Assembly: GCA_022822185.1 (NCBI GenBank)
Contig: JAJECE010000062.1
Coordinates: 1 to 40,134, forward strand
From: Rhodothermales bacterium
GTDB lineage: Bacteria; Bacteroidota; Rhodothermia; Rhodothermales; Bin80
Direction: 5' to 3'
Length of the DNA: 40,134 bases
In this document: piece after piece, positions 9,917 through 22,053 of the stretch
Position numbering within the stretch: position 1 is the stretch's first letter
Layout: every line of letters starts with the position of its first letter
Translations under genes and position numbers: made by a program
The notes under the pieces: model-generated
The model's input: the letters and a program-made list of their open reading frames with translations, nothing else
What the model was told of the DNA's origin: nothing
Database searches by the model: none

Positions 9917-11620
9917 TCACCGGCCCGATCGTGCCGCTTGCTGGTACCTCCGAAAATACACCTCTGCATTCAGGGTATCTCCGGTCTGGACCAGATAACG
10001 GGCCATGTTGTACAGCATCACTGGAGATTCAGGGTACGAAACTTCAATCTCCTGTAACAGGATCTTCGAAACCCGGAACGCTCTCTGACGGAGCCTTAGC
10101 GCGGCCAGAATGTTCAGGTTCGTCTCCGAGGGGGCTCTGGCAACCACCAGCTGCATGACCTCTCCGGCCAGATTATCGGACTGCCTTGCGGCAAGTTCCG
10201 CCGCCTGCGTGTGCAGACGTTCATTGAACGGCTGCCAATACAACAGGGCACGCATGTGGGACAATGCCTGCAGCGTATCCAGACCTGCAAGGTATTGTGT
10301 CTTAGCTTCCAGCAACGCTTCATAGATGGGAACCTGAAGCATCACCGCCAGCGCTGCAAGAGAATCCGCAGGCCTTCCCGACTCCCGGTGAGCATCCACG
10401 ATCCGCTCAAACCGACGCATTTCTTCGTCTTCCGTGAGCCCCTCCGTAAACGGAAAACCCAACCGGAGCCTGGCAATCAGCAATCTGGCATATGCGGCAT
10501 CCAAAGGAGACGGTTCCGGGTGCATCAAATCCAGTCCACCTTCCTCCCTGTTCTTATCCATTGCAGAGACGAACGCCGCTGCAATCAGATCATAGCCCCG
10601 CGCAGTCGGATGAAGATGGTCGGTGAAGAGCGAGTCGGTGTGCGCCGAATCAAAGGACGGCCCTGTATTCACCAGAGTTGCACCATGCCCCGCTGTCAGA
10701 CGCTGGATCACCTGATTCATTGCCTCTGGAGCACGAAACCTGACCGGATCATGCTCTTTTGCCTCCACGAACGCATCCATCGCGGCGGCGGTATCCCCTG
10801 CTGCCCAGCGCTCCGTGCCGCGCTCCCATGCGCGACGGGCAGCGGGACTGATTCCCAGAGGCGGCTGGCCACGAAGATTGGCAGCCAGTGTGCCAACATA
10901 GGTCTGAATTCCTGCCTGCCCCAATGACCGGAGAATGGCCGCCAGATTTTCTTCAAAATTCTCTATGCCCGCATCGTATACCGGACCATCCCGGTCAATG
11001 GAAACATCCGTAGTCGACTGCGCCATCATCGTCCGGCTGGACCGGTTCGGGGGTGAAATAATCCGCTCAAACCTTCGGAACAGAACACTTTTCTTGAACC
11101 AGAAAAGCATCCGAACCAACCTGCGGTTCCGAGTTGCGCCCCCCGCGCCATATGCTCCATAGTATTCATTGTGCCCTGCATAGATCAAAATAATATCCGG
11201 CTCCATCCGGATTACATGAGGCGTGATGTCTCGCAGTACATGACTGCTGAGGGCCGTCATGCCCAGATTGATCATTTCAATCGGGCGCGTCGGTTCCGCT
11301 GCACGCAGCCGTGCGGCAACCCGCTCTGGAAATCCAACATAAAACGGATAGGGATAGCCCGCGGTTGAAGATCCGCCAAGCGTCACAACGCGAAGTATGG
11401 TATCGGGCTTCTGCTTCAAAAAAGGATTATAGGCAACCTGCGGTACAAACCCCCGAAAATAGCGACCCGAATAAGCCGGATTCACGGTCTGGTATTCGGG
11501 TTCACCCGGTACAGGAATAAGAAACGGTTCGTTCTCAAAAAGGCGAACGCCCCCCTCCGCTGCGACCAGAAGTGCCAGCGGAAGCAGGACTGCGAAACCC
11601 TTGAACAGCGTTGTTCTCAT
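9917..11620 (-). CDS. SGNH/GDSL-family hydrolase with helical C-terminal extension
   Basis: A 567-residue protein with an N-terminal hydrophobic segment (residues 6-22; signal anchor or signal peptide), then an SGNH hydrolase domain. Block I is GGSST (82-86, nucleophile Ser), block III is GHNE (149-152), and the catalytic Asp/His are in DHLHP near residue 340. About 200 residues after the hydrolase are helical and contain TPR-like stretches at the C-terminus (for example NMARYLVQTGDTLNAEVYF). Such enzymes are usually lipases, esterases or acetyl-hydrolases acting in the periplasm or on envelope glycans; the substrate is unknown. The ATG at 11620 follows an AT-rich leader without a strong SD. 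It has no obvious link to the sterol genes beyond adjacency. Confidence 0.85.
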   Translation of the reverse strand: MRTTLFKGFAVLLPLALLVAAEGGVRLFENEPFLIPVPGEPEYQTVNPAYSGRYFRGFVPQVAYNPFLKQKPDTILRVVTLGGSSTAGYPYPFYVGFPERVAARLRAAEPTRPIEMINLGMTALSSHVLRDITPHVIRMEPDIILIYAGHNEYYGAYGAGGATRNRRLVRMLFWFKKSVLFRRFERIISPPNRSSRTMMAQSTTDVSIDRDGPVYDAGIENFEENLAAILRSLGQAGIQTYVGTLAANLRGQPPLGISPAARRAWERGTERWAAGDTAAAMDAFVEAKEHDPVRFRAPEAMNQVIQRLTAGHGATLVNTGPSFDSAHTDSLFTDHLHPTARGYDLIAAAFVSAMDKNREEGGLDLMHPEPSPLDAAYARLLIARLRLGFPFTEGLTEDEEMRRFERIVDAHRESGRPADSLAALAVMLQVPIYEALLEAKTQYLAGLDTLQALSHMRALLYWQPFNERLHTQAAELAARQSDNLAGEVMQLVVARAPSETNLNILAALRLRQRAFRVSKILLQEIEVSYPESPVMLYNMARYLVQTGDTLNAEVYFRRYQQAARSGR

Positions 11621-12130
11621 TTTTTAAACCACCAATGCCTGACAGGATTCCAGCTCTACCTCTGATGCCAGAGATGACCGAACCAGATTAAGAGAATGTA
11701 CATCGGACTCTGAACATGACTTCGGTATAAAAATTAAGCAACCCGGACGAATCGTGAGAAAATCAATTGCATCGGCAGGGGAACCGGGGTCACGGCTTCA
11801 GACTGATCCCATGTTGCGGGTCCATCCTGACTCTGAAAAAACATTACAGATCAGGGGATTCAAACCGGAATTCCCCGCAAACCGCGGGGGGCTCATTGAG
11901 TATTTTCCGGAGATCCGCCACCGAACAGAAAAATACGCCCCGACCCGATTACCTGAACGGATTGATCCTGCGGCAGGACAGATTCCGCCCGCCAAATACA
12001 CAATGGAGCGTAACCCTGTACCGCCTTGTGCGTTATATGTCCAAATTTGGCTATCTTTACCCGGTTCACAGGCGCTCCGCTTGCATGACCTGTCCTTTAT
12101 CATATACCATTTCTGACCCTACTAGGATTT
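11621..12130. other. Divergent spacer upstream of the sterol methyltransferase
   Basis: About 510 bp between the divergent SGNH hydrolase and the methyltransferase. Overlapping frames of 101-124 codons on both strands (11754-12141) lack domains and are probably chance. Near the methyltransferase a TTGCAT (12081-12086) and TATACC (12103-12108) are 16 bp apart and could be a weak sigma-70-type promoter. An AGGA five bases before the ATG at 12131 is the likely ribosome binding site. Confidence 0.4.
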
Positions 12131-13144
12131 ATGTCCAATAAAGCCGATTCCCGTTCCCGTATTTATAATGCTCCCGAAGAAGTAAATCCTGTGGTGACGC
12201 GCTATAAAGATATTCACGAGACTGAACTTGAAGAGCGACAGGACAAGTACAAGATCCTAGTCAATGACTACTACGACCTCGTAACAGATTTCTTTGAATG
12301 GGGATGGGGGCAATCTTTTCACTTTGCGCCCCGCCGCCGAGGCGAATCCTTCAAAGAATCGCTGCTCCGGCATCAGCGCTTCCTTGCCAGCCAGTTATCT
12401 CTAAAGCCGGGCATGCAGGTACTGGATGCAGGTTGCGGTGTGGGGGGGCCTATGGGGAATTTTGCCCGATGGTTCGGGGCCAGTTTTGTCGGAGTCAACA
12501 TCAATCAATACCAGATTGAGCGCGCCAAAAAGCATACCCGGGATGTCCATGAACTCTGCCGCTTCCTCCACACAAGCTATATGCAGATTCCCGAGGAAAA
12601 CGACCGATATGATGCTGCATTTGCCATCGAATCCATGCCGCATGCCCCGGACAAGACGGGAGCATTCCAGGAGATTTTTCGTGTGCTTCGGCCAGGAGCC
12701 TGTTTTGCAGGCTATGAATGGTGCCTCACCGATGACTTTGAACCCGGAAACAGCGAGCACCTGCACATCAAGCAGGATATCATGGTGGGCAATGGACTCC
12801 CCGACATTACTTCCACTCACGAGATCTGCAACGCGCTGCGTGATGCCGGTTTTGAGATTCTTGAAGCCCGGGACATGGCTTCCGATTCGGACCCGGAAAC
12901 CCCGTGGTATCGCGCTCTCCAGGGAAGAGACTTCACGCTCTCTAGCATCCCGCGTACCCCGATTGGCCGATTCTTGACGAATCTGACCTTGCGGGTTGGC
13001 GAATGGTTGCGGCTAGTGCCGAAAGGATCAAGGGCCGTCAGTACATTTTTGAATACAGGGGCGGATGCTCTGGTCAAAGGCGGAGAATCCGGTGTATTTA
13101 CGCCAATGTTTTTCTTTCTGGCCCGGAAACCCGAACAGACGTAG
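12131..13144 (+). CDS. smt: Sterol 24-C-methyltransferase (ERG6/SMT family)
   Basis: A 337-residue SAM-dependent methyltransferase that would transfer a methyl group from SAM to C-24 of the sterol side chain. All hallmark SMT regions are visible: the aromatic sterol-binding motif EWGWGQSFHF (56-65), the SAM loop LDAGCGVGGP (98-107), NINQYQIERA (123-132), HAPDK (171-175), YEWCLTD (195-201) and GVFTPM (321-326) near the C-terminus. The length is slightly below that of the fungal and plant enzymes. The eukaryotic TCHAP segment reads MPHAP here, a deviation next to the active site. The motif set argues against a cyclopropane-fatty-acid or ubiquinone-type methyltransferase. The gene is tail to tail with the fused cyclase gene (3 bp between stops), forming the plus-strand arm of the sterol locus. 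AGGA sits 5 nt before the ATG. Confidence 0.92.
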   Translation: MSNKADSRSRIYNAPEEVNPVVTRYKDIHETELEERQDKYKILVNDYYDLVTDFFEWGWGQSFHFAPRRRGESFKESLLRHQRFLASQLSLKPGMQVLDAGCGVGGPMGNFARWFGASFVGVNINQYQIERAKKHTRDVHELCRFLHTSYMQIPEENDRYDAAFAIESMPHAPDKTGAFQEIFRVLRPGACFAGYEWCLTDDFEPGNSEHLHIKQDIMVGNGLPDITSTHEICNALRDAGFEILEARDMASDSDPETPWYRALQGRDFTLSSIPRTPIGRFLTNLTLRVGEWLRLVPKGSRAVSTFLNTGADALVKGGESGVFTPMFFFLARKPEQT

Positions 13145-13147
13145 CGT

Positions 13148-16100
13148 CTAGAGATGTAGATGCAGACCTGGGAGTTTGGGAATCACACCATTGGACGCGT
13201 GGGAAGGCTTTAACTTCAGACGGTCCCGATGCCGCTCGGCATAGAGCCCCAGTGCATGCAGCGGGAAGTACTGCCGGTATAAAGTATAATCCAATAATGC
13301 CGTACGGAAAAAGACCCCTGCCATGTCCTGCTTCGGCCAGGTTCCATCCTCGTTCTGCATATCCATTAAAAACTGGATCCCCCGCGTAATTGCAGTCCAG
13401 TTTGAGTCATATGCCTCAAGAAGTGCAATGAGCGCCCATGCCGTGTGAATGACCTGACTCTCCGGATGCGGTACATATTTTCCTGGCAGGCTGCCACTGT
13501 AATGCTCCCCCCATCCGCCATCTGATCGCTGCTGTTCCAAAAGCCACTGACAGGACAGCCGAACCGCTGAATCACCAGGGGCAGAACCGGCGGCGAGAAG
13601 GCCTCTGACCCCGAACAAGGTGCCATAAATGTACTGGATCCCCCATACCCCCCGCCATCTTCCATCCATCATCTGGACAAAGCGAAGCCAATTCTCCCCT
13701 CTTAAGATCGCTCTGTCCACCTCCCTGCCCACAACCTGCGGGAAGTGCGTCCTGCACGCGGCAAGGGCCGCAAGGCACGATGCCGTGCATTCAACATAGG
13801 AATGCTCCGTCATGGACTCCCCAAACATTTCTGCGGGATTTAACCATTCGAGGCCCACCCTGGATCGCCTGGGTTCATAGCTGCCAAAGCCGCCATCACG
13901 ATTCTGTCGAAGCAGGATGAACCGGACTGCGTCACGGACTGCCGATGCACGGATTGCATTGGGGTCCGCGGCAAGAATCCCCAGAAGCGCTTCCGCCGTA
14001 CAGTCAGATACCGGCCAGCCATGCCATGCTCCGGGGAAACACCAGCCACCTTGGGGATCCGTCCGAAACGCCTCCTCAAATCCCTCAAAACTCTCCGAAA
14101 TCTGCTGCTCTACCAGAAAGTTGGCCCCACGCTGAAGCGAGCGCCTGACACCATCCATCTCACGCACAGTCGCCAGCGCCTGCAAGGAAAAACCCGTGTC
14201 CCATGAGGAACTCCTGGCCCCCGTCACGCGAACACCATGCTCCTCGTCTTCCCAGATCCAATCCTCCAGCCTTTCAAATGCCTTCCGGCAATCTTCATCC
14301 TCCGGATCATGGAGCCATAAGGCAAGAATATTCAGAAAACCACTGACTGGAGAAATATTTGTATGGTTGGTCGTCCGCAATTCCCAGCGGATACGCCGAA
14401 GCATATCTTCCAGACAGCGTGCGCGTAATTTTTTGCTGTGAAACCGTTCAATCATCTGCGCCAGCTCGTACCCGCCCCGCAGCCAAAGGCTCGGCGGCGC
14501 AAAAAGATCCTTCTGCCGCAAACGATTGCGCCCCGCAGAAAAATTCACGCGATCATAGCCCTCAGGAAATAATTCTTCCCGCAGACATGCGATCACAGGC
14601 TTTACCGGAACCTGATGCCGATGCTCATAAACCGAGGCGACTCCCATGTAAATAAGCCGGGTATGGCAATACCAGTTTGCGGGATGCAATGGAACCCGGC
14701 GGGGCAGGATCCACAGTTCGGGGAGCATTGCATTGACCCCTTTCCAACTGTACAGGTTCAGAATTGCCAGCCAGAATTTGCCCCATGTCGGAATATTGAT
14801 GACTCCCTCGGTTTGCAGAAACTCTCTGGCCGGCCGGATCAGTGGATCCTCCCGGTCTACGCCAAGCAATCGGGCTGCAACATACACCAGTGTGGTCACA
14901 AAGAGATGTGACTCGGAATGCGCATGCATCCCCCAGGCTCCCCCTGAAAGGCGGGTATGTGCAAAGGAACGAAGAATACGGCGGCAGCGGTCAGTATCTA
15001 TCGGACGGCCCAGAATATAATGGAGCAGCACATATTGCGCGGTAAGCATTGGACACCAGACCATCTCCCCCTCCCATTCCCCCTTTTCTCCCTGAAGACG
15101 CATCAGACAGTTCCCCGCACGATCCAGCACCGCGCTCACCTCCAGAAATGCCGATTTGCCAGAACCGTTCCGGTTTGCCTTATTCACACCGGATGGCATC
15201 GAGACCAGAAGCGCACGGGAAAGAGAATCCCAAATCCGACCCTCATCATGATACTGATCCGCGTTTTTGAGTTTATTGAGATTCCAGACTCCACGGGCGA
15301 GCCAGTTCAGTCGAACTGCAAGCGAGTAAATCACCCCCCATGTCCGGCGCCAGGCAAACCGGTTGAACGACCGGGGCAACTCAGATCCCAAAGTCCGAAA
15401 CATAATCCCTCCCCCCTCAAACGCCATCAGGGTTGACGACTTTGCCTCACAGGCAAGTAAGCGCATCGTATTGTCGCGGAACGAAGCACTCGCACGCCAA
15501 CGACGATAAACCGAGTGGCGGACCGAAGCCGCCTCCGCCCGGTAGTCTGCAAATACCTCGTAGATCTCCATTGCAAGGATTTCCGGCGTTCGCACCTCCT
15601 TGAATCGTCTGGCGACAAAATTATGAAAATCATCCGCCTCTGCAAGAGCTAATGCATCCCCAAACCCAAGGGTCATTCCCACGGCAGTCAGAGGATGATA
15701 ATGCCCCGCTGCATCACCAATAATGACATGATCCGATGTGCCATAGGTAATACGCGGACTTAATGCGTTTGCGGCGCTGTGAAATTCTCCCTCACGGATG
15801 GATGCATTAAATGCCTCCCGAATGGATTCCGGCAAAAACTGGGCAGATACATCGAACAGAAAACCAACCCGGTCCTTGGGATTCCAGTAATGAAGCGGGA
15901 TGTCAACAATGACCCGAATCTGCTCCTCTCCCAAACGGTACATAAAAATCGGACCGGGGGCTCCGCACAACAGATGTCCGTAACCTTCCTCGGGCAAGGC
16001 GGCCCCCTTCACGGTAACCCCTACCATTCGGGAAGAACTCGTTTGCTTTATTTTTACCGGTAGTCCCAATGATCGACGTACGACTGAACCCCGCCCGTCA

Positions 16101-16567
16101 GCACCCACAATACGATCCGCAACCAGAGAATACATATCGCCATCCCAGGAATATTCAACACGATGATCGGCAACGGACCGGACCCGGGCCGTGATAAAAT
16201 CAATTCCCGATTCTTCCTGTACGGCGGCCCGCATCGCTGCGACAATCTCAGCATGTTCACATGCCAATCCGCAGCCTCCGTTCGCGTAAGGAAGGACGAT
16301 GAAATCCGATCTGTCTTCCGGCAATACCACAAATCCCCTGCCCCGGGAGCTATGCGGCTGTGCGTCAAGTTGAATGCCCAGATCTTGTAAAATTTTCACT
16401 GCCGGGGGATGAAGCCATTCCCCGGCCATCCGTTTGGTAGATCCAGGATTCGCTTCAAGCAGTGCAACACGCGCACCTCTGCGTGCATGAGCAATCGCAC
16501 ACAGGCTGCCTACGGGCCCGGCACCAACGATTGCGATATCATAGTGAGGGGCAGCCATGGAACTCAC
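13148..16567 (-). CDS. Squalene monooxygenase-oxidosqualene cyclase fusion
   Basis: One uninterrupted 1139-residue protein carrying two successive enzymes of sterol synthesis. Residues of about 8-400 are an FAD monooxygenase: GAGPVG (15-20), GEWLHP (49-54), the DG motif GADGRG (155-160), and GDAAGHYHPLTAVGMT (284-299), whose HPLT.xGMT is typical of squalene epoxidase. Residues of about 450-1139 are an oxidosqualene cyclase: WYCHTR (632-637), catalytic VSDCTAE with Asp855, YVECTAS (924-930), QW-type repeats (GGFGSYE, GGWGEHY, DGTWP), and the C-terminal YRQYFPLHALGLY. DCTAE instead of DxDDTA marks an oxidosqualene, not squalene-hopene, cyclase. It would epoxidise squalene with O2 and cyclise the product at the membrane. 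The start is GTG 16567 (overlapping the CYP51 stop) or ATG 16558. It is the last gene of the operon. Confidence 0.93.
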   Translation of the reverse strand: MSSMAAPHYDIAIVGAGPVGSLCAIAHARRGARVALLEANPGSTKRMAGEWLHPPAVKILQDLGIQLDAQPHSSRGRGFVVLPEDRSDFIVLPYANGGCGLACEHAEIVAAMRAAVQEESGIDFITARVRSVADHRVEYSWDGDMYSLVADRIVGADGRGSVVRRSLGLPVKIKQTSSSRMVGVTVKGAALPEEGYGHLLCGAPGPIFMYRLGEEQIRVIVDIPLHYWNPKDRVGFLFDVSAQFLPESIREAFNASIREGEFHSAANALSPRITYGTSDHVIIGDAAGHYHPLTAVGMTLGFGDALALAEADDFHNFVARRFKEVRTPEILAMEIYEVFADYRAEAASVRHSVYRRWRASASFRDNTMRLLACEAKSSTLMAFEGGGIMFRTLGSELPRSFNRFAWRRTWGVIYSLAVRLNWLARGVWNLNKLKNADQYHDEGRIWDSLSRALLVSMPSGVNKANRNGSGKSAFLEVSAVLDRAGNCLMRLQGEKGEWEGEMVWCPMLTAQYVLLHYILGRPIDTDRCRRILRSFAHTRLSGGAWGMHAHSESHLFVTTLVYVAARLLGVDREDPLIRPAREFLQTEGVINIPTWGKFWLAILNLYSWKGVNAMLPELWILPRRVPLHPANWYCHTRLIYMGVASVYEHRHQVPVKPVIACLREELFPEGYDRVNFSAGRNRLRQKDLFAPPSLWLRGGYELAQMIERFHSKKLRARCLEDMLRRIRWELRTTNHTNISPVSGFLNILALWLHDPEDEDCRKAFERLEDWIWEDEEHGVRVTGARSSSWDTGFSLQALATVREMDGVRRSLQRGANFLVEQQISESFEGFEEAFRTDPQGGWCFPGAWHGWPVSDCTAEALLGILAADPNAIRASAVRDAVRFILLRQNRDGGFGSYEPRRSRVGLEWLNPAEMFGESMTEHSYVECTASCLAALAACRTHFPQVVGREVDRAILRGENWLRFVQMMDGRWRGVWGIQYIYGTLFGVRGLLAAGSAPGDSAVRLSCQWLLEQQRSDGGWGEHYSGSLPGKYVPHPESQVIHTAWALIALLEAYDSNWTAITRGIQFLMDMQNEDGTWPKQDMAGVFFRTALLDYTLYRQYFPLHALGLYAERHRDRLKLKPSHASNGVIPKLPGLHLHL

Positions 16568-17943
16568 GGGAAGATTACCGGCTCTGATCGGCGTTTGTAC
16601 GCAAGTGTGCAGGGCAGTTCAGGGCCGGTTACCCAACTTCCGTAGTGCGGGGCGGGAACCCCGTTCGTCTGAAAATCAAACCGATCAACGAACACCGTCC
16701 AGATCGCCTTGAGCTGTAAGTATGCAAAATGCTTTCCCATGCACCGATGCTTTCCTCCCCCAAACCCGATGAGTGCATAATGATGTTGCCTGTGCTGGTT
16801 ACGGGGCGGCAAAAACCGCTCCGGTAAAAATTCATCCGGGCGGTCAAAAAATTCGGCTAACCGATGCGACACCGCAGGCGAAACCATCGCAAGCGAGCCT
16901 GGACGGATTTCCTGATTCTGATAGCAGATGGGCTGAAGGACTTTGCGGATCAACAGAATTAACGGCGGATGCATTCGTTCATTTTCCCGAACAACACTCT
17001 CCAGAATCACCTGTTTTTTGAGCGTTTCAAAACCAACGGTCGAATCCGGGTCACGGTAGATATGCTGCATTTCGTTGCGCACCTCCTGAAGGTGGGAGGG
17101 AGAATTGAGCAGTTCCAATCCCATCCAGGTTGCCAAGACCGCACTGGTATGCTGACCCGCAAAAAGAAGTGTCAGCAGAATTCCTGCAATCTCCTGATCG
17201 GTCAGTGCCCGCCCCTCCTTATAACGAACATGCATCAATTTCTGCATAAAGTCATCCGGGTTCGCACCGGACTTTCTGCGTCCCTCCATGATCCGGTTAA
17301 AAATACGGGAGATCCTGCGGCGGGCACGATCCCGCTTGCGGTGGGCTTTGGTGGGGAGTTTGGGAAGAAAAAATCCAAGAAGGTTGATTCCATTCTCCAG
17401 ATCATGATACGCTTCGGCGAATCCTTCATCGACCTGCGCACGTACTTCCTCACCAATAAGACAGTGGCTGGCGATCCTGACGGTGAGTTCATTCATCGCC
17501 TTCGGCAAATCCAGCACCCCCTCATCCCCAAGCTCATCTGCAAACTGATTTGCCTCCTGATACATGATTTTCGCAAATCGGTGCATGGCGGCCTCTCGCA
17601 GCAGCGGAACCAGAAACCCCAATTGCTCAGACATAATCTCCGGCTCCACATCATAGGCAACTCCCTTGCCAAAGATCGGAACGGTAAACCGGTACACAGA
17701 TCTGGCATCCAGGTACTGATCGGATGCCTTAAAGTAAACATCATGGGCATCCGGGCCGGAAAAAAGTACACATTCCTTGGGGCCCAGCCGAAATCGGGTC
17801 AGATCGCCATGTTCACGCCAGCCGCGTCCCATGGTTAAAACGGGATCCTTTATAAACTCCATAAGATGCCCAAGCACCGGCCTTCCGCCTGCAAGTTCCG
17901 GCACCGATATGGAGGTGCCTCCATTTACAGATTCATTCGCCAT
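16564..17943 (-). CDS. cyp51: Sterol 14-alpha-demethylase, cytochrome P450 family 51
   Basis: A 459-residue P450 from the ATG at 17943; the frame stays open to 18030, but that would run into the upstream gene. It has the CYP51-specific B'-helix signature YRFTVPIFGKGVAYD (84-98), the I-helix AGQHTS (262-267), ENER as the ExxR motif (320-323) followed by HPP, PERF (374-377), and the heme loop FGGGKHRCMG with Cys401 as ligand. The enzyme removes the C-14 methyl of lanosterol-type sterols in three O2-dependent steps, leaving a C14-C15 double bond for the neighbouring reductase. There is no N-terminal membrane anchor, as in soluble bacterial CYP51s. No redox partner or fused ferredoxin is seen in the window. 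It lies 8 bp after the sterol reductase stop and overlaps the fusion gene start by up to 4 bp, so it is co-transcribed. Confidence 0.95.
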   Translation of the reverse strand: MANESVNGGTSISVPELAGGRPVLGHLMEFIKDPVLTMGRGWREHGDLTRFRLGPKECVLFSGPDAHDVYFKASDQYLDARSVYRFTVPIFGKGVAYDVEPEIMSEQLGFLVPLLREAAMHRFAKIMYQEANQFADELGDEGVLDLPKAMNELTVRIASHCLIGEEVRAQVDEGFAEAYHDLENGINLLGFFLPKLPTKAHRKRDRARRRISRIFNRIMEGRRKSGANPDDFMQKLMHVRYKEGRALTDQEIAGILLTLLFAGQHTSAVLATWMGLELLNSPSHLQEVRNEMQHIYRDPDSTVGFETLKKQVILESVVRENERMHPPLILLIRKVLQPICYQNQEIRPGSLAMVSPAVSHRLAEFFDRPDEFLPERFLPPRNQHRQHHYALIGFGGGKHRCMGKHFAYLQLKAIWTVFVDRFDFQTNGVPAPHYGSWVTGPELPCTLAYKRRSEPVIFP

Positions 17944-17951
17944 AGTTCCAC

Positions 17952-19046
17952 TTAATAGATGAACGGGATCATAGAAAAACGTGCACGCTGCTTGTACTGC
18001 TCCCACAATGCCCCATACTTCGCACTGCACCGACGTTCATCACGCCATGAGCGGTGCAATAACAGCCCCACCAGCCATGCAGTCAAAAGAAACGGCACCC
18101 ACGAGGTAAAGCCAGTCGTGAGCACAAAAGCAAAATAGACACAAATTTCGCCGGTATAATTCAAATGCCGCCCAATCCCCCAAAATCCCGACACCAATAA
18201 GCGTCCCTGAATGGTCTGGGCGGGTTTTCCCCAGATTGAGATCTGCGGATCACGCTTGAAGCGATGTTTTTGCTGGTTCGCCCCCCGAAAAAGCCAGAAT
18301 CCAAACACAAATAACAGAACGAGTGCAACCGCGGCGGGAGTGGACAGCGGGGGGGATGAATGGAGCAGCCACCACCCCGATATACAATAAAAGAATGGCA
18401 CCAGCACATAATCCCCCCAGATCAGCATCCAGCCAAAACGCTCACTCACCAGATCCCAGGTATGAATCATTCCATACTCAAACTGGAAATAATTGAACAC
18501 ATACAGAAAGGTAAACCCCTGATACAGTATCATCGCCAGGGTGAGCTGCCCACTGGCCTCATACTGGGTCACTGCGAAGGAGACATTAAACAGTGCCAGT
18601 GCAATGAGCGATGGGCGGTAACTGAAGAGTTTTAGATTGACTCCAAACCAGACCGGACTATGCTCCACCCCAAAGAAATATCCCCCGAAAAATCCCTGGG
18701 GAGAATCCTCCGTACGGGTTCCTCGCCAATAAAGCCAACCCGCAAGCAGGAAGGCAAACAGATTGGTCACCACAAACAGCGCAGCAAAATGGGTCTGCAG
18801 CGTGGACATCGAAAACAGCCCCGTGAACTGCGCAAGCCCTGCCAGCAGCATGGTGAGCAAGAACAATAAAAGTCCGTTCAGTTTGTAGGCGGGGACCTGC
18901 CCATTCACTGCCGGCCCCTCAAGGACACGCCCCGGCAGCACCATGGAACCCAGAAACAGAAGCAGAATGAAACCGCTCATCATCGCCGCCGCCTCCATCA
19001 AAGAGGTGGTGGATAATTGAGCGGCTATGGACGGAAACGCAGGCAC
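17952..19046 (-). CDS. Sterol reductase, ERG4/ERG24 family (probable C-14 reductase)
   Basis: An integral membrane protein with about eight to nine hydrophobic segments. The C-terminal half carries the family signature LLVSGFWGIGRHLNYTGE, then HRSWRDERRC and the terminal RFSMIPFIY, all typical of sterol C-14 reductases, DHCR7 and C-24(28) reductases. The more N-terminal family motif (GREL-NPR in eukaryotes) reads GVEHSPVWFG here, so Arg of NPR is missing. C-14 reduction of the CYP51 product is the best guess from its position just upstream of cyp51; C-7 or C-24 reduction cannot be excluded. The frame opens at a GTG at 19094, overlapping sdmA by 43 bp. GTG 19046 is preferred because it leaves a 5-bp gap and has AAGGGG 8 nt upstream; ATG 18998 is also possible. 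Confidence 0.85.
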   Translation of the reverse strand: MPAFPSIAAQLSTTSLMEAAAMMSGFILLLFLGSMVLPGRVLEGPAVNGQVPAYKLNGLLLFLLTMLLAGLAQFTGLFSMSTLQTHFAALFVVTNLFAFLLAGWLYWRGTRTEDSPQGFFGGYFFGVEHSPVWFGVNLKLFSYRPSLIALALFNVSFAVTQYEASGQLTLAMILYQGFTFLYVFNYFQFEYGMIHTWDLVSERFGWMLIWGDYVLVPFFYCISGWWLLHSSPPLSTPAAVALVLLFVFGFWLFRGANQQKHRFKRDPQISIWGKPAQTIQGRLLVSGFWGIGRHLNYTGEICVYFAFVLTTGFTSWVPFLLTAWLVGLLLHRSWRDERRCSAKYGALWEQYKQRARFSMIPFIY

Positions 19047-19051
19047 AGCAC

Positions 19052-20167
19052 TTACCCCTTTTTCTCCTTTTCGCGTTCCAGATACTCTCTCCACTTGCGT
19101 ACCGTCACTTTTTGAAAGGACCGTACCACGGGATTCACCTCAATGGGGGCAGAGTCCCAGAATTTGTCGTAGCCTGCCTGTTCGGCTTCCACCGCTACAC
19201 GGTCCTCTGAAAGCAGTGGCGTAATCAGTTGACGATTTGCAATCTTCAAGACCGTGATCATTGCCCAGCGTGGAATACGGATGGGTAGAAGTGGAATCTT
19301 TAACGACCTAAAATAAAACAGGAAAAATGCACGCGTCGTCCGCTCATCCACCGGAAGCACAAAGAGCCAGTGTTTAATCTCATTATCGGTGTTGGACCAC
19401 TGATAGGGATACTCATAACAGAGTTCCATGGAGTTCGTATCAATCCGGTCATGCTCAACAAACAGGCCGGAAATTTTCCCGCGTCCGACCTTCGTATTAT
19501 AGGAAAGGTGCACATTGTCCCCGACAATCTCGTGATGGAGCAGGTCTGCACCTTCGAACGGGCGGTATTTCCGGTGCAGGTAGGCATGTGAAAAATCACT
19601 GACATTGTCGATCACCATGGAATGGTGTGCACAGCAGTCCATGGTAATCGGCACGCAGGCCCACCGGTCCGACCCTTCCAGTTCGGGGATGTCCGGAATC
19701 TGGCGCGTCTCCGCCAATTCCGGATCCCCGGGAAAGAGCCATACCAACCCGTATCGCACCTTGACCGGATAACTTCGAATTCCCAGTCTGGGGACTTTTT
19801 TACGTCCAAAGAGATCGGGAATGCCGACAACGCGGCCTTCCCCGTTATACTCCCATCCATGGTATTCACACACCAGGTTACACCCTTCTACATTCCCAAG
19901 AGAAAGTTTGAGTTGTCGGTGCAGACAGCGATTCTCCAGTGCATGGAATGATCCATCTTCCCCGCGATAAAGGGCAATGGAGCGCTTCCAGAAGACGATT
20001 TCGGTCGCGGTACCCGGCTTCATCTTACACACCTCCTCCACCGCATACCAATAATTGGGGTCCATGCCTGCAGCACGTGCCTGCTGACGCAAATTGCCCC
20101 CCTCTTCAAAGAGAGGCGGCGGGTTCGGGGGAGGGGTTGCCTCAAGTATAGACTGAGTTTTTCTCAT
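19052..20167 (-). CDS. sdmA: Rieske oxygenase, SdmA-like sterol C-4 demethylase component
   Basis: A 371-residue Rieske non-heme iron oxygenase. The [2Fe-2S] ligands are Cys81-x-His83 and Cys100-x2-His103, and the mononuclear iron ligands are probably Asp191, His194 and His198 in DFSHAYLH. In Methylococcus capsulatus the Rieske enzyme SdmA with the reductase SdmB removes one C-4 methyl from sterols. Here an oxygenase and a 3-beta-HSD-like reductase are adjacent within a sterol operon, which makes this the most likely role. Residues 12-25 (PPPNPPPLFEEGGN) are encoded by a palindromic REP-like repeat, so either this repeat is translated or the true start is Met35 (20065), just before the conserved WYAVEEV. 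It lies 12 bp after the sdmB stop. No dedicated ferredoxin reductase is present. Confidence 0.85.
   Translation of the reverse strand: MRKTQSILEATPPPNPPPLFEEGGNLRQQARAAGMDPNYWYAVEEVCKMKPGTATEIVFWKRSIALYRGEDGSFHALENRCLHRQLKLSLGNVEGCNLVCEYHGWEYNGEGRVVGIPDLFGRKKVPRLGIRSYPVKVRYGLVWLFPGDPELAETRQIPDIPELEGSDRWACVPITMDCCAHHSMVIDNVSDFSHAYLHRKYRPFEGADLLHHEIVGDNVHLSYNTKVGRGKISGLFVEHDRIDTNSMELCYEYPYQWSNTDNEIKHWLFVLPVDERTTRAFFLFYFRSLKIPLLPIRIPRWAMITVLKIANRQLITPLLSEDRVAVEAEQAGYDKFWDSAPIEVNPVVRSFQKVTVRKWREYLEREKEKKG
20091..20138 (-). repeat. REP-like palindromic repeat in the 5' end of sdmA
   Basis: On the minus strand this segment runs from a C-rich stretch (ACCCCTCCCCCGAACCCG) into CCTCT-loop-AGAGG at 20101-20116, then a G-run and AATTT. 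Its look matches the small extragenic palindromic repeats of several Bacteroidota and Cyanobacteria, which when translated give runs like NPPPLFEEGG. Only one copy is seen in the window, so its repeat nature is inferred from resemblance rather than shown by multiple copies. Confidence 0.5.
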
Positions 20168-20179
20168 TTGCCTTGATGT

Positions 20180-21253
20180 CTAAGGGATTGGGGATCTGTC
20201 ATCCATGCGTGGAGGTTTTGCACGGGGATTCGTGATAGCCTTGCGTCTGCAATGAAACGCATACGCATCATGGACGGCATCACGGATCGTGGTTGGCTTG
20301 AAATCAAGCTCTCGCTGTGCCTTTGTGGTATCTGCATGGCGACATTGTCTAAGCAGGCGAATGGCTCCCGGCGTAAACCGCTGCGGAACCTGTGGATGAA
20401 ATTTGCTCAGGTAGGCACTTATGGCCTCCGAGAACAGCAGCATCAGTTTGGAGGGAATCCGCCGGCTTGACCGCCTGATACCGGTCACTTCCTCGAATAG
20501 GTCCAGGATTTCGGAGATCGTTTTATACTCGCTGCTAAAGATGTATTTCTCACCAGAACGCCCCTTATGCATACACAAGAGGTGTCCTTCCACAATATCT
20601 CGTACCGCAACAAAGTCAAACCCGCCATCCACATACGCACGAATCTTACCTTTGGTATGATCACACAGGGTTCTGCCCATTCGTGAAGGTAAATAGTCAT
20701 GACCGCCAATGACTGCGCAGCAGGTTGCGACAATCACATCCTGCCCCTTGGCTGCCGCCTTCCAGCACTCCATCTCAACCAGCGACTTGCTGCGCTCATA
20801 GGGCATCATCCTTTCCATGGGATAAAACAGCATCTCCTCGTTACTCGGAGCCGATGGATCATCCAGATCATACCCGACTGCACTGAATGACCCCGTCACT
20901 ACAACCCGCCCCGCATCTACTTCTCTGGCAGCCTGCAGCACATTGCGGGTTCCCACCACATTACATTCAAATACTTCTCTGCGATGTGCCCGATTGCCCT
21001 CAATCGTTGAAATCTTGGCCGCCACATGGTAGACTCCCTGACAGCCTTCCATCGCCCTTCTGGTCGCCTCCAGATCCCGAATATCCCCGTAAACACGCTC
21101 TACCTCAAGACCCTTTACCCCTTCATTGTTATCCTCACGGCGCAGTAATACCCGCACCCGCACCCCGTCTTTCAGAAGCCGGCGTACCAGATTTGCACCT
21201 ACATGCCCTGCCGATCCCGTCAGAAAAACGGGCGGTAACAACGAACCATCCAT
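20180..21253 (-). CDS. sdmB: NAD(P)-dependent 3-beta-hydroxysteroid dehydrogenase-like reductase, SdmB-like
   Basis: A 357-residue extended short-chain dehydrogenase. The nucleotide-binding motif is TGSAGHVG (12-19), the active site is Tyr152/Lys156 (YERSK), with Ser in VTGSFSAVG (119-127). The fold and length match the 3-beta-HSD/isomerase group that includes SdmB and eukaryotic C-4 decarboxylases (ERG26/NSDHL). Beside the SdmA-like Rieske oxygenase it would catalyse the decarboxylation/3-keto step of C-4 demethylation. The ATG at 21253 is chosen because the frame upstream opens only at a TTG (21316). This is the first gene of the sterol operon; AGTATA at 21304-21309 (TATACT on the coding strand) is a -10-like box about 50 bp upstream, without a good -35. 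Confidence 0.87.
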   Translation of the reverse strand: MDGSLLPPVFLTGSAGHVGANLVRRLLKDGVRVRVLLRREDNNEGVKGLEVERVYGDIRDLEATRRAMEGCQGVYHVAAKISTIEGNRAHRREVFECNVVGTRNVLQAAREVDAGRVVVTGSFSAVGYDLDDPSAPSNEEMLFYPMERMMPYERSKSLVEMECWKAAAKGQDVIVATCCAVIGGHDYLPSRMGRTLCDHTKGKIRAYVDGGFDFVAVRDIVEGHLLCMHKGRSGEKYIFSSEYKTISEILDLFEEVTGIRRSSRRIPSKLMLLFSEAISAYLSKFHPQVPQRFTPGAIRLLRQCRHADTTKAQRELDFKPTTIRDAVHDAYAFHCRRKAITNPRAKPPRMDDRSPIP

Positions 21254-21490
21254 CCTCAAATTTTCCAGATCATTTTTTCGGAAGTCAGTCTGAATAGAAA
21301 GACAGTATATCAACAATACTCCGCTTGAACGAACTCCTCAAATAATTGTTTTCAAAGTGCCTGTCATCCCATGTCCAAGGGCACGACGGCATCAATCAGA
21401 TCAAGGGAACCATGGACCATGACCGCTTAGAAGACGGCCGAACTCAACCCTGATGCTCCATGTCCGCCCCGAAAGCCCCTTGCGGGACAT

Positions 21491-21697
21491 CTAGCAGCCT
21501 GTGGATAAAGTCCAGAAAAATCTGAGGAACGCTTTTCGGGTTGGTCTTTGGAGATTAGATTGCTCAAAATAGCCATAGAAGAGAGGTTTTTCGCCCCTTG
21601 GAGTCTCAAAAAGGGCGAAAAATAGATGGTTTGGCCATCTACGACACGCAGTTGTGCTGTCTAATTCTGTGATCATACTTTATCCACGGGCTGCTAG
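21491..21697. mobile_element. MITE-like element, about 207 bp
   Basis: Inverted ends of 21 bp with one mismatch: 21491-21511 begins CTAGCAGCCTGTGGATAAAG, and the complement of 21677-21697 begins CTAGCAGCCCGTGGATAAAG. The CTAG at both outer edges could be a 4-bp target duplication, which would make the element 21495-21693. Inside there is a second inverted repeat (TTTTTCGCCC and GGGCGAAAAA around 21589-21624). The 60- to 66-codon frames here are not a transposase. It is thus a non-autonomous miniature element or an IS remnant, sitting about 240 bp upstream of the sterol operon start. Confidence 0.75.
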
Positions 21698-22023
21698 CCG
21701 CCCGCGGATCCAACGGTAGAGGATGTGCAAGAGCCGAGATTGAAGTGGCTCCTGTCTTAAGCTGTGCAGAGCAAGATTTTTTTCATCACTTGCTGAAAGA
21801 CTGCACCGCGCCCATTCAGCAACACAACCCGTCGATGGCCGCCCCTGGAAGGAACCGGAACCGCATCTCCCCGCAATCACATGCCGCTAATTTAAACCCA
21901 ATCCTCGCATGTCGAATTAACCTGTAATGGTACTTATAAAGTGTTGCAAGGCTGGTGGCTTTCCAGGGCTCCTAACACATCCTGAACTGATTGGCAGAGA
22001 TTCTCACACGGGTCTAAATGATC
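21698..22023. other. Spacer upstream of the LacI gene
   Basis: No supported gene. TATAAA at about 21938-21943 with TCGAAT 17 bp upstream could be a weak promoter. Short minus-strand frames (21680-21880, 21934-22131) have no domains. The stretch lies between the MITE and the palindromes ahead of the LacI-family gene. Confidence 0.35.
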
Positions 22024-22053
22024 GCGGTCTTGACCGCAAATGCCATTAATTAA
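22024..22053. promoter_or_regulatory. Two palindromes upstream of the LacI-family gene
   Basis: GCGGTC-TT-GACCGC (22024-22037) and the perfect 12-bp palindrome CATTAATTAATG (22042-22053) lie four bases apart, 50-80 bp before the regulator ATG at 22104. LacI-family proteins bind as dimers to such dyads and often control their own gene. The dyads are seen; the binding is inferred. Neither has the central CG usual in LacI-type operators. Confidence 0.35.

Follow-up and report, generated by a model that had tools for sequence, protein, structure and literature searches.

Can six neighbouring genes of a Rhodothermales bacterium carry squalene to a C-24-methylated sterol, and how did the bacterium obtain them? 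The question is raised by positions 12131–21253 of a 40,134-nucleotide stretch (contig JAJECE010000062.1; hereafter, the window), in which a sequence-only reading had placed six sterol genes. We conclude, with a probability of roughly 0.85, that the locus is a sterol cassette of the type described from symbionts as the msb locus and the CSG operons, that it was probably acquired horizontally, and that, as predicted from its sequences, it leads from squalene to a C-24-methylated sterol, with one fused protein performing both epoxidation and cyclisation.

Five of the genes lie on the minus strand. From position 21253 downward, they encode an SdmB-like NAD(P)-dependent reductase/decarboxylase (20180–21253), an SdmA-like Rieske oxygenase for C-4 demethylation (19052–20167), an ERG24-like sterol reductase, probably acting on the delta-14 bond (17952–19046), a CYP51-like sterol 14-alpha-demethylase (16564–17943) and the fused protein (13148–16567). 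The last is a single frame of 1139 amino acids, in which a squalene monooxygenase (SMO, about residues 1–440) is followed by a junction (about 459–476) and an oxidosqualene cyclase (OSC, about 476–1117). A gene for a sterol C-24 methyltransferase-like protein (SMT; 12131–13144, plus strand, 337 amino acids) converges on this operon and is separated from the fused gene by 3 bases. Inspection of the starts favoured ATG 21253 for SdmB, GTG 19046 for ERG24 and ATG 17943 for CYP51, although the longest open reading frames extend to 21316, 19094 and 18030, respectively. Therefore, the five minus-strand genes lie close together, and the extensive overlaps implied by the longest frames disappear. The Rfam scan of the window gave no match at gathering cut-offs, and ARAGORN found no tRNA.

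In the profile search, all six genes were located where the sequence-only reading had placed them and scored above the curated (gathering) cut-offs of Pfam. The SMT gave 82.1 bits with Sterol_MT_C (PF08498; cut-off 21.7), which is placed after an S-adenosylmethionine methyltransferase domain. The CYP51-like protein scored 190.7 bits with p450 (cut-off 22.8), and its nearest solved structures, the top 18 PDB matches, are all CYP51. The ERG24-like protein scored 222.7 bits with ERG4_ERG24 (PF01222; cut-off 27); its nearest solved relative is the delta(14)-sterol reductase 4quv (E 1.1e-67), in a search that did not directly compare ERG4 and DHCR7. The SdmA-like protein matched Rieske at 74.6 bits (cut-off 20.3), and the SdmB-like protein matched Epimerase at 115.2 bits (cut-off 20.9) and 3Beta_HSD at 67.2 bits (cut-off 22). 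With the dedicated NCBIfam models, NF052579 (SdmA) and NF052578 (SdmB), the scores were 412.6 and 297.6 bits against cut-offs of 600. Therefore, the two proteins are labelled SdmA-like and SdmB-like and not equivalogs; these scores agree with the assignment in direction, but not in strength. The motifs that had been quoted for the locus were all present on inspection, namely HPLTAVGMT (residues 291–299 of the fused protein), WPVSDCTAE, YRFTVPIFGKGVAYD, CLH/CEYH and WGWGQSFHF.

The epoxidation and cyclisation genes that had been read as two are one open reading frame; both steps are represented, and their fusion had passed unremarked. The epoxidase half scored 73.4 bits with squalene epoxidase SE (PF08491; cut-off 20.1) and possesses the flavin adenine dinucleotide (FAD) motif GxGxxG, the DG and GD motifs and the SQLE fold of a squalene monooxygenase. 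The cyclase half scored 168.1 and 177.2 bits with SQHop_cyclase_N and SQHop_cyclase_C (cut-offs about 26 each) and passed TIGR01787 (squalene/oxidosqualene cyclase) with 499 against 322.7 bits. The top-scoring model was TIGR03463 (2,3-oxidosqualene cyclase; 745 bits over positions 4–633/634); since this is below the curated 851, the cyclase is not filed under TIGR03463. A hopene cyclase was rejected, because the hopene-cyclase model gave only 245 bits against these 745, and the oxidosqualene type proposed earlier was thereby supported. In fold comparison alone, 2sqc slightly outscored human OSC against the predicted structure, a model of moderate confidence (pLDDT 76.9, pTM 0.72, several OSC loops below 50) built from the window sequence and 52 of 120 fused homologues. 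No second match to PF13243 was found in the window's genome.

These 120 homologues are the best of 666 matches, and together with the window sequence they form the set of 121 in which conservation was counted. They are 1077–1179 amino acids long, every one with both domain sets; few bear source names, which are Nitrospira, Bacteroidetes, Rhodospirillales and one uncultured bacterium. The FAD glycines, D157-G158, G284-D285 and the cyclase aspartate D855 are kept in 120 or 121 of the 121. The equivalents of human D455, H232, Y503, W387 and W581, found by alignment to 1w6k and taken by us to have the catalytic roles, are conserved in all. The frame is uninterrupted in six genomes of the order: G000 (the window's own), G002, G003, G005, G029 and G060; the copy in G001 is interrupted by two contig ends and is uninformative on this point. 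An assembly or sequencing artefact was rejected in view of these open frames and of the listed homologues. The span across the junction measures 60–68 residues in the 121 sequences, and this short, near-constant length suggests a fixed arrangement. A literature search with limited reach into subscription papers brought up no assay of this fused protein.

To place the fusion among bacteria, one genome per species (84,980 species) was scanned with six short peptide patterns, which yielded 18 loci. The order SdmB-SdmA-ERG24-CYP51-fusion occurs in 11 of them, in Rhodothermales, Acidobacteriota and Gammaproteobacteria, and three of these 11 (L002, L003 and L007) have a convergent SMT within the flank. 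No CYP51 match was found in L019, and L018 (Methylococcaceae) carries split genes in reverse order. The fusion stands alone in three short contigs (L011, L014 and L017) and in two longer Gemmatimonadota loci (L004 and L006); within 10 kb on either side of the latter two, there was no match of at least 120 bits to other sterol genes. Among relatives, the fusion was found in 7 of 195 genomes, the window's included, and it was found in 4 of 394 genomes sampled across the phylum. The nearest named relative is a Rhodothermales metagenome-assembled genome (MAG), in agreement with the FCB-group host proposed earlier. Its contig L002, separately assembled and apparently from the same assembly as G003 (each has a contig of 52,313 bases, and the proteins are identical), has the identical six-gene order with 95–98% identity to the window. 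A eukaryotic or chimeric contig was rejected on this synteny and on the comparison of flanking genes with congeners.

In a quick IQ-TREE tree of 63 rows (41 fused and 22 split), all 41 fused rows fell into one clade (SH-aLRT 95) with two split pairs nested inside; the remaining 20 split rows, including the Planktothrix outgroup, were outside. The simplest reading, which is not proof, is one fusion followed by two later fissions, a minimum of three changes. FastTree with 89 rows separated the Gammaproteobacterium L009, together with its split partner, from the main group of fused proteins, a placement that weighs against a single fusion event; that tree likewise requires three changes. Separate cyclase genes were also seen on two plasmids. 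That of Planktothrix agardhii (L032; NZ_LR882940.1) clusters four cytochrome P450 genes with genes for a monooxygenase, an oxidosqualene cyclase-like protein (54% to the window), a squalene synthase-like protein and a short-chain dehydrogenase/reductase, and on that of Streptomyces sp. YIM 121038 (L031) genes for a cyclase, a squalene/phytoene synthase and an FAD oxidoreductase stand between transposase genes.

From homology, the pathway would run as follows. The N-terminal FAD domain of the fused protein would epoxidise squalene, and its C-terminal domain would turn the oxidosqualene into lanosterol; the fixed junction might hold this intermediate at the membrane, between one site and the other. 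The CYP51-like enzyme would then remove the 14-alpha methyl group, the ERG24-like enzyme would reduce the delta-14 bond, and SdmA/SdmB would take off one or both C-4 methyls; the enzymes of Calothrix strip both, and those of Methylococcus one (PMC10202945). Since no delta-24 reductase look-alike is among the six genes, a delta-24 sterol would remain for the SMT to methylate at C-24. No EBP isomerase was matched in the window's genome; therefore, the pathway probably ends at a delta-8 sterol. Three squalene/phytoene synthase genes were found in this genome. The one on contig 82, whose best model is squalene synthase TIGR01559 (130 bits, cut-off 286.75), is a probable squalene synthase that would supply squalene. 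The genome also contains a fatty-acid-hydroxylase/sterol-desaturase-type gene (contig 86) and a 629-residue fusion of a polyprenyl synthase with a phytoene/squalene-type synthase (L020; contig 95). An aerobic lifestyle of the host bacterium is a fair inference.

The same genes might instead make a secreted or host-directed triterpenoid, either a sarasinoside-like norlanostane or a sponge substrate, and not a membrane sterol. The twin msb locus has been proposed for sarasinosides (PMC7074536), and the isolate prefix of the nearest named MAG, jk18x, recurs in 11 of the 18 scan loci, itself included, which would be sponge MAGs. However, the gene set is that of a plain sterol pathway, and no glycosyltransferase was found among the five window neighbours scanned with Pfam. 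We consider such a product unlikely.

The origin of the cassette was approached through the site that it occupies. In the congener G006, whose RecG is 87% identical to that of the window's genome, the LacI-type and GDSL-type flanking genes adjoin (L043). DNA homology between the window and G006 ends at 11620 and restarts at 22039 by blastn, and the block missing within these homology limits (11621–22038) contains the sterol genes. In G002, the two flanking genes are also adjacent (L049), and a sterol operon is present on another contig (L044). The block at the window's site is common to G000 and G003. The fused proteins of the congeners G001 (a 681-residue piece), G002 and G005 are 62–65% identical to the window's, and those of G029 and G060, which belong to another family, are 67% identical; for RecG, the values are 72–79% and 51%, respectively. 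Path lengths summed along trees gave the same picture. For the five genes, the path was about 0.53 substitutions per site from G000 to G029 and about 0.65 from G000 to G002, whereas for RecG, which alone provides the species signal beyond the genus, the paths were about 2.4 and 0.46. RecO broadly agrees with RecG inside the genus. Because the site is empty in two congeners, and because the genes are as near to those of another family as to those of congeners despite a far more diverged RecG, horizontal acquisition is likely, and a between-family transfer of the cassette is the likely form of it. Conflict among gene trees has already been reported for CSG genes (PMC9531527). The repeats flanking the block were only 8–13-base matches (E at least 0.14) and therefore identified no insertion mechanism. 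Upstream of the operon, the window contains a 207-base element (21491–21697), probably a miniature inverted-repeat transposable element, whose terminal inverted repeats of 21 bases are 95% complementary; its 20-base end motif has 49 copies in the genome at up to one mismatch and none in the reversed control, and most of the element is missing from L002.

Alternatively, the cassette could be ancestral in the genus and have been precisely lost at this site in G006 and G002, without transfer between families. In G001/(G002,G005), the fused protein tracks RecG (73–76% against 72–75%), and the sterol genes look vertical among themselves. Furthermore, the fused proteins of Rhodothermales form one clade in the 63-row tree, the other family standing outside the genus. 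Against this reading stand three observations: the five-gene path to the other family is no longer than that to a congener, in contrast to RecG; the G002 operon lies away from the empty site; and the PF13243 cyclase, present in five of the ten genomes of the genus, is missing from the other five. Ancestral presence with loss is thus improbable, and we retain horizontal acquisition.

As for the product of the cyclase, the position of human V453 is V853 in the window and is valine in 120 of the 121 sequences; the other two classical lanosterol positions differ (T381 is A784, and C/Q449 is H849). Among the bacterial cyclases tested, valine at position 453 tracked lanosterol, and only this position holds among bacteria (PMC4919349). 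V853 thus predicts lanosterol, and not cycloartenol. In P0049, a fused protein of the Rhodothermales clade, isoleucine stands before the catalytic motif in place of this valine, and cycloartenol would be predicted there. A different product (cycloartenol, parkeol or arborane) in a different pathway is very unlikely here: agreement at one of three classical residues, the isoleucine of P0049 and an arborane from a bacterial OSC (Banta et al., by its title) would fit it, but the near-invariant valine, which by itself tracked lanosterol, and the adjoining CYP51-, ERG24-, SdmA/B- and SMT-like genes suit a protosterol.

Within the genus, the SMT does not follow the cyclase. An SMT-type match was present in all ten genomes, in G005 only as pieces and in G002 as two copies with stops. 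The SMT is split into separate frames beside the G002 operon (L044:12461–13315) and in G005 (L073:9664–10610), and the cyclase operon is kept in both. The cyclase-free congeners with an SMT-type gene are G007 (L055/L068), whose protein is 81% identical to the window's, and G004 (L069), G006 (L070), G009 (L071) and G008 (L074), with 43–45% identity. The SMT-type enzymes of cyclase-free congeners may alkylate host-derived sterols. In G004, G006, G008 and G009, no more than about 7 kb separates the SMT-type gene from a GPP34-P450 gene; as a sterol-modifying partner the latter was rejected as unspecific, since 17 of 59 relatives, the window's genome among them, have it. In G006, the one of these four that was examined for it, a KshA-type Rieske gene is also close to the SMT-type gene.

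Steranes alkylated at C-24 are used to trace eukaryotes, early animals among them. A bacterial cassette that is both compact and transferable, and that is predicted to make C-24-alkylated sterols, would add possible bacterial sources. In addition, the hand-over of oxidosqualene can be tested in the fused enzyme as one natural protein, and the genus, in which a defined site either has or lacks the cassette, offers a natural comparison for the role of sterols in a bacterium. Taken to its furthest, and speculatively, the picture would be a whole-pathway cassette founded on a single fusion, converting squalene to lanosterol without release of oxidosqualene and jumping between families and phyla into empty sites; it would give sponge-associated Rhodothermales C-24-alkylated sterols, while the SMT of cyclase-free congeners acted on host sterols.

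The sequence-only reading was right that an FCB-group bacterium carries a set of sterol genes; it did not consider horizontal transfer, and the striking novelty that it claimed is not sustained by the literature. In 2020, the msb locus (msbA-F) of a gammaproteobacterial Melophlus symbiont was described with the same gene set, including the fused enzyme and the SMT (PMC7074536). As in MsbE, epoxidase and cyclase are one protein in the window; the host phylum differs, and the msb host has glycosyltransferases at a separate locus. Section 2.4 of that paper reports no assay, and the strand of msbF is not given there. In 2022, CSG operons were reported in 115 of 537 sponge MAGs, including Ircinia symbionts, from 11 classes of 10 phyla, Rhodothermia among them (PMC9531527). 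These have, as in the window, an ERG24-CYP51-LSS core, a 5' 'DFR' and hypothetical protein, and, 3' of the core and in the other orientation, SMT (or FDFT1); by position, 'DFR' and the hypothetical protein would be SdmB and SdmA. The last gene is named LSS (alignment of 3765 positions), and that paper never mentions a fusion. The window shares the msb/CSG order, with SdmB-SdmA-ERG24-CYP51-cyclase on one strand and the SMT 3' on the opposite strand. Bacterial SMTs have been assayed in vitro (PMC10070321), whereas the activity of the window's SMT is predicted from sequence; their clusters also join SMT with sdmA/B and OSC, and fused SMO/OSC homologues were trimmed in the methods. The pathways of Calothrix NIES-4105 and Methylococcus resemble the window in C-4 demethylation by SdmA/SdmB with OSC, and the Calothrix cluster also in CYP51-type C-14 demethylation; the word SMT is absent from that paper (PMC10202945). 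A Calothrix OSC (strain NIES-4071, P0240) is a stand-alone protein of 673 amino acids, in contrast to the window's fusion. This kind of locus, the fused enzyme included, is already known; what our analysis adds is that the fusion is read explicitly and placed in a phylogeny, that the junction hardly varies in length, that the site is empty in two congeners, and that SMT and cyclase do not match within one genus.
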